Source: Cyanobium sp. AMD-g
Lineage (GTDB): Bacteria > Cyanobacteriota > Cyanobacteriia > PCC-6307 > Cyanobiaceae
Direction of reading: 5' to 3'
Assembly: GCF_024346395.1 (NCBI RefSeq)
Contig: NZ_JAGQCW010000003.1
Span: forward strand, 62,001 to 126,000
Length of the DNA: 64,000 nucleotides
Shown here one piece after another: positions 36,001 through 39,260 of the stretch. Under the pieces are notes generated by a model that searched no databases, was not told where the DNA came from, and saw only the letters and a list, made by a program, of their open reading frames with translations. Within the stretch, counting starts at the first letter, position 1; the number at the start of each line of letters is the position of its first letter. The position numbers and the translations under genes are program-made.

Positions 36001-36255
36001 GGAGCGGCGGCAGGGTCCTTGCAGGCGCCGGTGCGCCAGGGCCAGCCCCCAGACGCATTGGATCGAATACACGCAGTCCCGCACCCAGGCGTCGCCGTAG
36101 TTGCCGTGCACGGTGCTGGCGGTGCTGGCGGGCAGCAGTCCGGTGATCGGATGCTGCCGGCGCAGGACGACATGCTCGATCTGGCGGTCGAGCCGTTCGA
36201 GCAGCTGTTGGGCCTCCGCCGCTCCCCTGTCGTCGTTGCTCGCCGTGGTGCTCAT
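33025..36255 (-). CDS. GH15 / phosphorylase-kinase-alpha-like large protein
   Basis: The ATG at 36255 gives 1076 residues. Near the N-terminus ITGLLPASTASTVHGNYGDA leads to WVRDCVYSIQ, the (alpha/alpha)6 opening shared by bacterial glucoamylases and eukaryotic phosphorylase kinase alpha/beta. GWGHLQLDATALFLLQLAQL and PAWAVEDPALI follow in the same barrel. The C-terminal 500 residues have a phosphorylase-kinase-like arrangement (GNYGDAWVRD is repeated nowhere else). Such proteins are widespread in cyanobacteria; the substrate and regulation are unknown. It is convergent with the oxidoreductase and divergent from the WecG-like gene. Confidence 0.82.
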   Translation of the reverse strand: MSTTASNDDRGAAEAQQLLERLDRQIEHVVLRRQHPITGLLPASTASTVHGNYGDAWVRDCVYSIQCVWGLALAHRRLQGPCRRSFELEQRVLQLMRGLMRSMMRQSAKVERFKTSLERLDAIHAKFDTATGDPVVADDGWGHLQLDATALFLLQLAQLTRSGLVIIQTSPERDFLQNLVYYVARAYRVADYGIWERGDKGNHGQPERNASSIGMVKAALESLIGLDLYGPHGDGSCCLTIPHDAIVRLRRALRGLLPRESASKEADSACLSVIGYPAWAVEDPALIARTLDKIRSELAGSYGYKRFRRDGHQTVLEDVSRHHYEREELAQFEHIECEWPLFLAYELITACCEGRWDEARQWRQQLEELSVQVDGEALLPELYLVPERLIEAERRQPGSQIRVANENVPLLWTQSLTWLSDLLLHGLITADDLDPCGRRHPSPPGAQEVLVALAPADASVAAALADAGLPVKLLPAGETPPLRVASSRELARRLATVGANGRLGLSGHPPVRMETQATARLYRHNGELIGFLPAVLEEDTFYLADDAQVLVDTVATEVRVLQRHWRGEAAPLLLVPVHAGPFRRDPDAFLDLGRDLQRGQLGSVPVRLVSLEELVPLASLIDLPPQALAACDLVPDGHTLLPASASHQPLTARQEQELEDVPLAHLVDRLWSSRSLEEQAEVLELLSRRLGPNARLQGPRSGPGVRLMVLLEEVYRRGLADADWSVVRRAAGAMGLVHPQLEDALTDLLLRQKQVVVGRNYTHDSLLSQPEGSLAIAAMVRRFSGEDGREWMLQQELLLAIDALARSNVNLLSGSLTLQLGQFLLLLTGELAAEANLSPSEAFERLCSLPPHAIRRRLRAVLADVEHARASLQRKEQLHLRGRVRWEVPDPLAELPKDGSWLQHRMRLGALQRVPKDFYPGIWDLLHHCRGLVIGDKLERRNRLESAPLLREKTPGEKNFAMLVEHLLSKIEAPEYRRLCIETLLTLMAFMAANPQVQFDDDLALDVVIGHAVRVGWQQCHPEVPSDQYGPHKAEAWDLFYRSSPADCRRWQLLALQELTDREAVPLDRTNRRQVT

Positions 36256-36334
36256 GGTTGCGTCAGGACGGGGCGTGCCGGAGGTTGCTGTTGCGGAGCC
36301 AGGCCATAGATTCTCCCCGCCGTCGCCCCATCCC

Positions 36335-37063
36335 ATGGCAGCCCTCGCGACCACGCCGGTCCGTGCCCGCGTCCTGGGCATTCCTGTGAATGTAAGCAAC
36401 GACGTGTTCCGGGATGCCGTCGCCCTGCACGGGGCCGGCGGCGGTCAGATCGTCACCCTCAATGCGGAGATGACCATGGCGGCCCGGGCGGATCCCGCCC
36501 TGGGGGCGGCGATCGAGGCGGCCGGGATGGTCATCCCCGATGGCGCCGGGGTGGTCTGGGCCCTGGGTCGCCAGTCCCATCGCGTCCGCCGCAGCCCCGG
36601 CATCGAGCTGGCCCGTCACCTGCTGGAGCATGCGGCGGCCGTGGGCTGGCGGGTCGCCCTGGTGGGGGCGAGTCCGGCGGTGATGGATCAGCTGCGGGAG
36701 CGCCTCGCCCACGACCTGCCCAATCTGCAGCTGGTGTTCAGCGTTCACGGCTACCAGCCTCCCGAGGCCTGGCCCGGTCTGGAGCGTCAGCTGCTGCAGG
36801 CCCGCCCCGATCTGGTGCTGGTGGCCCTGGGTGTGCCGCGCCAGGAGACCTGGATCCAGGCGCTGCCCCAGCCACGCGCCGGGCTGTGGATGGGGGTGGG
36901 GGGGAGTTTCGACGTCTGGGCCGGCGTCAAGAAGCGCGCCCCCCGCTGGATGGGCGCGCTGCAGATCGAGTGGCTCTACCGCCTGATCAAGGAACCCAGC
37001 CGCTGGCGGCGCATGCTCTCACTGCCTGCCTTTGCCTGGGCGGTGTTACGGGAGCGCCGCTGA
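36335..37063 (+). CDS. WecG/TagA/CpsF-family glycosyltransferase
   Basis: This family (GT26) adds a sugar to a polyprenyl-linked intermediate. The 242-residue protein has VLGIPVNVSNDV, IVTLNAEMTMAARADPAL, then VIPDGAGVVWALG with the Asp-Gly pair, LVLVALGVPRQETWI and WMGVGGSFDVWAGVKKRAP. The C-terminal LQIEWLYRLIKEPSRWRR is strongly conserved. It probably acts on the lipid-linked sugar made by a WecA-type enzyme such as that at 58941. Its stop codon is inside an inverted repeat shared with psbK. Confidence 0.9.
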   Translation: MAALATTPVRARVLGIPVNVSNDVFRDAVALHGAGGGQIVTLNAEMTMAARADPALGAAIEAAGMVIPDGAGVVWALGRQSHRVRRSPGIELARHLLEHAAAVGWRVALVGASPAVMDQLRERLAHDLPNLQLVFSVHGYQPPEAWPGLERQLLQARPDLVLVALGVPRQETWIQALPQPRAGLWMGVGGSFDVWAGVKKRAPRWMGALQIEWLYRLIKEPSRWRRMLSLPAFAWAVLRERR

Positions 37064-37290: not shown

Positions 37291-38412
37291 CTACCACGTG
37301 TGGGCGGCCGGGGAGTCGGGCTCCCAGGGAGCGAAATTCTCTGCAAAACATCCCTCGCTGATCGCCTGCGCCATGGCGGTCGTGAAGCGCAGCAGGGTGG
37401 TGAGATTGTGCAGGCTCAACAAGGTGCGTCCCAGCAGTTCCTCGCTGCGGAACAGGTGGTGCAGGTAGCTGCGGCTGTGCTGTCGGCAGGCCAGGCAGCC
37501 ACAGCTGGGATCGAGGGGGGCGTGGTCGTGGCGGAAGCGGGCGTTGCGCAGGTTCCAGCGCTCCCCCCCCACCAGGGCGGTGCCGTGCCGGCCCAGCCGG
37601 GTCGGCAGCACGCAGTCGAACAGGTCGAAGCCGTTGGCGACCGCGATCGCCATCTCCCGCAGGCTGCCCACCCCCATCAGGTAGTGGGGACACTGTTCCG
37701 GCAGCAGGGGACCCACCTGCCGCACCACCCGTTGCATCTCCTCGACGGGTTCCCCCACGCTCACACCTCCCACGGCGATGCCGGGCAGGTCCATCGCGGC
37801 CACCACTCGGGCCGAGGCCTCGCGCAGATGGGGGAAGCAGCCCCCCTGCACGATGCCGAACAGGGCCTGGTCGCCGCCGCCGTGGCAGGCGACGCAGCGC
37901 TCCAGCCAGCGGTGGGTGCGGCGGCAGGCCTCGGCCACGGCCGCTTCGCTGGCGGGATAGGGCGGGCACTGGTCGAAGGCCATGGCCACATCGGCCCCCA
38001 GGGCGCGCTGGATGGCCATGGAGCGTTCGGGGGTGAGGTCGATCCGCGAGCCGTCCCGGGGGGAGCGGAACACCACCCCATCGTCGTCGATCCGGTTGAT
38101 GGCGTCGAGGCTGAACACCTGGAAGCCGCCCGAGTCGGTCAGCAGCGGACCGTCCCAGCCCATGAAGCGATGCAGCCCGCCGGCGTCCTCCACCACCGAC
38201 TCCCCCGGCTGCAGATGCAGATGGAAGGTGTTGGCCAGCACCATCTTGGCCCCGGTCTCCTGCAGCTGCGGCGTGGTGACACCCTTGACCGTGGCGGCGG
38301 TGCCCACCGGCATGAACCGGGGCGTGTGGACGGGGCCGTGGGGGGTGGTGAAGCAGCCGCAGCGGGCCCGGGTCCGCGGGCAGCGCGCGGTGATCGTGAA
38401 GTTGAAGGCGAT
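37291..38412 (-). CDS. tgt: Queuine tRNA-ribosyltransferase
   Basis: Tgt exchanges guanine 34 for a queuine precursor in GUN-anticodon tRNAs. Motifs include [32 protein letters not shown] and [19 protein letters not shown]; zinc ligands CxCxxC lie in [20 protein letters not shown]. The conserved domain starts before the ATG at 38313: [19 protein letters not shown] reads in frame upstream of MPVG. No ATG, GTG or TTG exists in that frame between 38313 and the stop at 38464-38466. An ATC at 38410-38412 stands where the homologues' Met is expected, so I give that as the start with reserve. Confidence 0.88.
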
Positions 38413-38483
38413 GGCGCCGAACCTGCTCTGCTGCGACGCTACGCGGGGTTCCTGCCGCCACCGTCACCGACGCCCCTGCCCCC

Positions 38484-39260
38484 ATGCCCCGCCTGAGCGC
38501 TCCACCGTGGCTGCGGGATCTGGCCGGGGCCTGGATCTTTTATTCGGTGCTGCCAGCCTGGCCGTCTCCGGCGCCCCGTTTCGAGCGCATCGCCCGCTTC
38601 GCGCCCTGGATCGGTGCCGTTCTCGGTGTGCTGCAGGGGCTGCTCTGGTGGGCCCTGGAGGGGCGGGTGCCGCAGGTGGCCCAGGTGGCGCTGGTGCTGG
38701 CGCTGGGTCTGTGGCTGAGCGGCGGCCTGCACATGGATGGGGTGATGGACAGCGCCGATGGCCTGGCCGCCGGGGATCGCTGCCTGGAGGCGATGGCCGA
38801 CAGCCGGGTGGGGGCGAGCGGCGTGCAGGCCCTGGTACTGGTGCTGCTGCTGCGGACCGCGGCCCTGGCCCTGCTGGGGGCGGCGGCGCCGATGGCCCTG
38901 GTCTGGGCGGCGGTCTGCGGGCGGTTGGCGCCCCTGCCCGCCATGGCCTGGTTCCCCTACCTGCGGCCCGGTGGCAGCGCCGCCTTCCATCGCGCCCACG
39001 GGGCCGCCCTGGCGGTGGAACTGCGGCCCACCCTGTTGCTGCTGCCGCTGCTGCTGCTGCTGCCCTGGCCAGGCCTGGCGTCCTGGCCGGTGCCCACCGG
39101 CCTGGTGGCCCTGGTGCCGGCCCTGTTCGTTCCGGTGGCCCTGGGCCGCCGTCTGGGCGGCCACAGCGGCGACACCTATGGGGCCTGCGTGGAGTGGAGC
39201 GAATCCCTCGGACTGCTGCTCATCGCCGCGGCGCTGCGGCTGGCGGCCGCGGCAGGCTGA
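38484..39260 (+). CDS. cobS: Adenosylcobinamide-GDP ribazoletransferase (cobalamin synthase)
   Basis: CobS joins the lower ligand to the cobinamide in the last steps of (pseudo)cobalamin synthesis, in the membrane. The 258-residue protein has several hydrophobic helices and the characteristic [19 protein letters not shown] followed by [11 protein letters not shown]. Its 3' end overlaps the convergent histidine kinase by 41 bp. It is divergent from tgt with 71 bp between starts. Confidence 0.92.

Follow-up and report, generated by a model that had tools for sequence, protein, structure and literature searches.

The tgt gene of Cyanobium sp. AMD-g is very probably intact and translated from an AUC codon, at positions 38412 to 38410 on the minus strand of the window (the whole stretch of 64,000 nt that was analysed). 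This reading comes from comparison of nucleotide and protein sequences. The codon lies where homologous proteins begin to align, and it recurs in the same place, frame and spacing in the tgt genes of many related cyanobacteria.

The tgt open frame and its product

Translation of positions 37291 to 38466 on the minus strand confirmed that the tgt frame contains no ATG, GTG or TTG from the stop at 38464–38466 to the ATG at 38313, as a sequence-only reading of this DNA had claimed. Both the ATC at 38410–38412 and the AGCAGG nine bases ahead of it were present as that reading described them. The gene is transcribed away from cobS, and a psbK match was found downstream of tgt in the profile search. 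The features of the region are as follows.

37291–38412, minus strand: tgt, 373 codons from ATC, then TAG at 37291–37293; matches to TIGR00430 (469.2 bits) and PF01702 (472 bits)
38311–38313, minus strand: first in-frame ATG of tgt (at MPVG), read as an internal methionine, with conserved coding sequence upstream
38410–38412, minus strand: ATC, proposed start codon of tgt; 52 of 143 distinct loci have it in frame at this position, with 23 nt between TANNNT and ATC; also recovered by a frame-blind scan
38413–38435, minus strand: 23-nt spacer with a predicted leader of about 16–17 nt, carrying no conserved Shine-Dalgarno sequence or supported hairpin
38436–38441, minus strand: TAGCGT, a −10-like TANNNT element with a putative promoter role, 23 nt ahead of ATC
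38464–38466, minus strand: in-frame stop TGA bounding the tgt open frame, from translation of the sequence
38484–39260, plus strand: cobS, divergent neighbour of tgt, an ORF matching PF02654 (149.6 bits)

As shown by profile searches, the score of the tgt product against TIGR00430 was 469.2 bits, with a curated cut-off of 306.75, and profile positions 3 to 359 of 368 were covered. Within the 390-codon open frame, the matches to TIGR00430, to the superfamily profile TIGR00449 and to Pfam TGT (PF01702) began at residues 24, 22 and 32, respectively. The first ATG of the frame is residue 51, which lies 27, 29 and 19 residues after these three starts. The alignment to the best-matching solved TGT chains began at residue 3 of tgt, the second codon after ATC. 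A 16-residue segment and CGCLAC of the product aligned with the same motifs in a solved chain (1ozm_A, which we take to be the TGT of Zymomonas mobilis); these motifs are the active-site aspartates and the C-x-C-x2-C zinc motif of TGT. By profile and alignment, the Cyanobium product is a full member of the bacterial tRNA-guanine transglycosylase family (TIGR00430; e.g. 1ozm_A). Compared with that family, only the start codon and the leader of the gene are unusual, whereas the protein is ordinary.

In a codon-usage scan of 45 selected ORFs of the window, the coding signal ahead of the first normal start (ATG, GTG or TTG) was strongest in tgt. The predicted coding onset of tgt was 38421, three codons ahead of ATC. 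Seven of the 45 ORFs, including tgt, had a predicted onset at least 10 codons before the first normal start. Pfam and NCBIfam searches covered five of the other six, all but an ORF antisense to the ORF at 36101–37063. The Pfam match began after a normal start codon in all five, two of which had no NCBIfam match.

Conservation of the ATC codon among relatives

The 5' regions of tgt were taken from the matches listed for 58 of 60 relatives and 365 of 400 family genomes with a match, from the best 80 named records of a larger set and from 60 extra stretches. The 176 loci, window included, were reduced to 144 that were distinct in the 180 nt before MPVG, and one of these (L096), cut by a contig end, was dropped to leave 143.

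Comparison of the tgt 5' region in relatives, a check put forward in the sequence-only reading, showed that the ATC recurs. A TANNNT element followed by 23 nt and an in-frame ATC was found in 52 of the 143 distinct regions from Cyanobium and its relatives, the window included, and these loci span no fewer than six genus codes (g1, g46, g53, g68, g70 and g82). In each of the other 91 regions the open frame contained an ATG, GTG or TTG, and no region was of neither type. In an alignment of 40 distinct leaders (A1) the ATC was invariant, the ATC and the spacing having been part of the selection rule. With the core taken from 30 codons before MPVG, 24 of the 52 ATC loci, again including the window, lacked any in-frame normal start between the upstream stop and the core. 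A normal start lay upstream of ATC in 26 of the 52, the two nearest at 21 and 24 nt and the remainder at least 42 nt away, and in two loci (L081 and L152) a GTG followed ATC ahead of the core.

In a scan blind to reading frame, 55 of the 144 regions had TAGCGT no more than 170 nt from the core. The triplet at +23 of the last TAGCGT was ATC in 47 regions and another triplet in eight. These eight comprised one locus (L032) in which ATC stood at +23 of a TANNNT farther on, six with a normal start and the dropped L096. All 47 ATCs were in frame with the core, over 11 different lengths of the linker between ATC and core. At every other offset from 5 to 44, ATC occurred in at most three regions, save at offset 41 (19 regions), where it is taken to be an isoleucine codon of the conserved core. 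Because the ATC loci are related and their counts are not independent, the 11 linker lengths, rather than the 47 loci, are the nearer measure of independent support.

Pairwise differences between ATC and MPVG at codon positions 1, 2 and 3 numbered 239, 99 and 471 among 15 close Cyanobium loci, and 90, 124 and 525 among 11 loci of a second group. Over the 23 nt that precede ATC there was no third-position pattern, with differences of 176, 248 and 155 in the 15 loci and of 54, 46 and 82 in the 11. On this comparison, variation of the coding type is shown to start at the ATC. The presence of ATC rather than ATT carries little information, because the isoleucine codons inside tgt of 31 of the ATC loci were 344 ATC and 10 ATT.

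A tgt protein tree of 135 rows was constructed with two outgroups added; 10 of the 143 regions, all with a normal start and without the full gene, were left out. All 52 ATC rows fell within one group of 92 tree rows, the base of which was weakly supported (SH-aLRT 80). The start label required at least 11 changes on the tree, three of them forced by well-supported branches. A single gain of ATC, followed by several returns to a normal start, is one history that would fit this tree.

Some individual records differed from the rest of the set. The tgt of L020 (G024) is a possible mosaic, with a Cyanobium-type 5' end carrying ATC and a protein that groups with that of L018, a normal-start locus. 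A record titled Bifidobacterium breve (L046, CALPNT020000004.1) contained a Cyanobium-like tgt at 85% identity, so this metagenome bin looks mislabelled. One family genome listed as 100% complete (G308) had no tgt match, and tgt may therefore be absent in some lineages.

The leader and the site of initiation

From its position, the TAGCGT element would place the beginning of a short tgt transcript about 16–17 nt before AUC, just after the element. In the 91 normal-start regions, TANNNT stood 19–29 nt ahead of a candidate start in 48 (TTG in 24, GTG in 20 and ATG in four) and was found at none of these distances in 43. Many marine Synechococcus and Prochlorococcus records had GTG or TTG 20–24 nt after TANNNT at tgt, and others had no TANNNT there. 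A 21-bp unit containing TAGCGT was present in two or three tandem copies before tgt in L002, L003, L005, L006, L009, L010 and L020; compared with these close relatives, the window has a single TAGCGT before tgt.

The pattern TAGCGT-N23-ATC occurred at two sites in the whole genome, tgt and one that is not at a gene start, and the backwards control pattern occurred at one. At the second TAGCGT-N23-ATC site the ATC frame stops after 27 codons and is antisense to a putative pilin-like ORF. A wider class of genes sharing the tgt leader in the same genome was ruled out, as the sole other site is not a gene start.

Neither of two possible aids to initiation in the leader was supported. The AGCAGG pointed out in the sequence-only reading, a hint of ribosome binding, was not conserved, and a conserved Shine-Dalgarno sequence in the ATC leaders was rejected, with a 4-nt core match in only 15 of 52. 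In a first count of a possible hairpin, three inner pairs were formed in 76% of cases over the 52 loci, a value reached by none of 500 shuffles, and slid versions gave 33–51%. In the fuller test of six pairs on the 40 distinct leaders, pairing was 66.3% versus 65.3% when shuffled, with 129 of 500 shuffles as high; the covariation score in the same leaders was reached by 46 of 500 shuffles. Slid versions of the six-pair hairpin paired less (28–54%), and RNAalifold predicted zero pairs on the tgt leaders. A leader hairpin, although still possible in view of the weaker pairing of slid versions, is not supported, the fuller test being no better than shuffles.

Translation might instead begin farther upstream, either at a different near-cognate codon or in a different frame with a later frameshift; the ATC would then only encode isoleucine or belong to a DNA-binding site. 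We consider this improbable. An in-frame CTG is found six codons before ATC in 11 of the 15 first-listed distinct relatives, and CGGC at −7 to −4 of the ATC is well conserved, as this explanation would have it. However, the upstream CTG is missing from the window genome and from L004, L007, L012 and L031, and 45 of the 52 ATC loci lack ATG, GTG and TTG in all three frames between the predicted transcript start and the core. Moreover, no triplet other than ATC is invariant downstream of the −10 element, although ATC belonged to the selection rule.

A start inside the gene, which would yield a shortened protein, is less probable still. It would lie at MPVG (38313), the first normal start of tgt in the window genome, or, in many relatives, at a GTG six codons earlier, which the window genome does not have. 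The 33 codons ahead of MPVG vary chiefly at third positions, and the TGT profiles extend over most of them, with the solved chains aligning from residue 3 as described above. The shortened protein, which the sequence-only reading had listed among its options, is disfavoured by this third-position bias and profile cover. A dedicated initiator tRNA with anticodon GAU would account for the use of AUC instead of GUG or UUG, but we attach very little credence to it, as the 41 tRNA matches in the genome offered no candidate: they included one Ile(GAT), adjoining tRNA-Ala(TGC), and two Met(CAT), and no second GAT tRNA was found among them (an Ile(TAT) overlapping a tRNA-Thr was called by ARAGORN alone). 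A sequencing or assembly error that deleted a normal start, also considered in the earlier reading, is refuted for practical purposes, since the same ATC is common to 52 distinct loci, including named-strain loci (e.g. L037–L039, which repeat L031, L004 and L006) and genomes listed as one contig (G022, G081 and G195).

The unusual ATC start, the first option of that reading, is strongly supported by the comparison through its conserved position, frame and spacing. At this AUC the ordinary initiator tRNA would probably read the codon as a near-cognate, at low efficiency, and fMet would be placed there. Initiation would proceed with no conserved Shine-Dalgarno sequence or supported leader hairpin, and the product would be a full-length TGT of 373 residues. 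The poor start codon may have been kept since tgt needs only weak initiation, and we infer selection for weak initiation at Cyanobium tgt.

The gene infC was used as a control for the behaviour of start codons in general. Among the matches listed (38 genomes with a match), the infC start of the genus Cyanobium was ATG in 30 of 30 loci. A general relaxation of start codons was therefore ruled out as the source of the tgt ATC. In another cyanobacterial family (f23), ATG was nearest the infC core in 26 of 27 loci and TTG in one, with the fragment loci L369–L371 left out.

Start codons of tgt in other families and known near-cognate starts

Outside Cyanobium's family, 123 tgt loci were collected, of which 121 were distinct. 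The 123 comprised 22 loci (one per family), 90 among the matches listed for a sample in which 154 genomes had a match, and a further 11 of f23 genera apart from g23. Among the distinct loci, the normal start closest to the tgt core was TTG in 69, GTG in 28 and ATG in 20, and four had none; these counts are approximate, since the closest start need not be the true one. Such counts suggest that weak initiation is tolerated or favoured at tgt. The four loci without a normal start were L300 and L308 (g23), both with CTG, L321 with ATT, and L293, in which the frame is broken. The sequence upstream of the core lacks ATG, GTG and TTG in L321 (G425) and L300/L340 (G049), where ATT and CTG, respectively, are likely tgt starts. 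A stop upstream of MPVG interrupts the tgt frame of L293 (G042), which is possibly a pseudogene or an assembly error.

The genus g23 of family f23 was represented by 25 tgt loci, not de-duplicated (L310–L319, L322–L325, L327, L328, L331, L334 and L372–L378). One codon was CTG in 22 of them, TTG in two and another codon in one. In 19 of the 22 CTG loci, no ATG, GTG or TTG occurred either at the core or before it, and 17 of these 19 had a single codon between the in-frame stop and the CTG; the remaining three of the 22 had a TTG three codons upstream. From this arrangement, the tgt of g23 appears to start at CTG. By eye, AGGA was seen about 9 nt upstream in many of the g23 loci.

Near-cognate starts have been described in other bacteria. 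The infC and pcnB genes of Escherichia coli are reported to have AUU start codons that regulate or reduce expression (PMC1780047). Cyanobium tgt is likewise a bacterial gene with a near-cognate start; however, the E. coli codons are AUU, whereas that of Cyanobium is AUC and lies in tgt, the infC of this genus starting at ATG. Non-canonical starts are described in Staphylococcus aureus for infC (AUA), cvfC1 (AUU) and ccpN (AUA), conserved for cvfC1 and ccpN, and reporters of cvfC1, ccpN and citZ are stated to reach about 10% of the expression obtained with AUG in one medium, with ccpN rising to as much as 30% in a richer one (PMC13009471). The same source presents an extended Shine-Dalgarno sequence as predicted to direct start choice in infC, cvfC1 and ccpN. 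Cyanobium tgt shares with the infC-like class the absence of a normal start (24 of 52 loci) and the conservation of the near-cognate codon (ATC in 47 of 55 regions in the frame-blind scan). Unlike the S. aureus genes, its AUC leaders had no conserved, compensating Shine-Dalgarno sequence (4-nt core match in 15 of 52 leaders), and its start is proposed from sequence, whereas reporter expression was measured in the S. aureus cases.

In a Chlamydomonas chloroplast gene, replacement of AUG by AUU or AUC is reported to lower initiation by only 10–20% (PMC9845219), and as cited this counts against a strong AUC penalty. A Bacillus subtilis fusion with an AUC start is reported to have much lower expression (PMC10303841).

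No AUC start in tgt or in cyanobacteria was recognised in the literature covered, which consisted of open-licence papers judged mostly by titles and abstract openings. As far as that literature shows, conserved near-cognate starts are already known; what is new is the AUC codon, its occurrence in tgt, the lack of a conserved Shine-Dalgarno sequence and the apparent CUG parallel. Natural bacterial AUC starts are, to the same extent, little documented. An AUC kept across at least six genus codes with no conserved Shine-Dalgarno sequence would allow a clean test of how start codons are selected and of what makes a poor one persist. For annotation, genes with such starts are at risk of being trimmed to an internal ATG.

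It is possible, though on balance we doubt it, that tgt is held at weak initiation throughout Cyanobacteria and that several lineages have independently moved past UUG and GUG, to AUC in the Cyanobium lineage, to CUG in at least one other genus and possibly to AUU. If this wider pattern holds, low output of this tRNA-modifying enzyme becomes testable, and the tgt start codon would be a set-point, or a regulated step, for queuosine modification.
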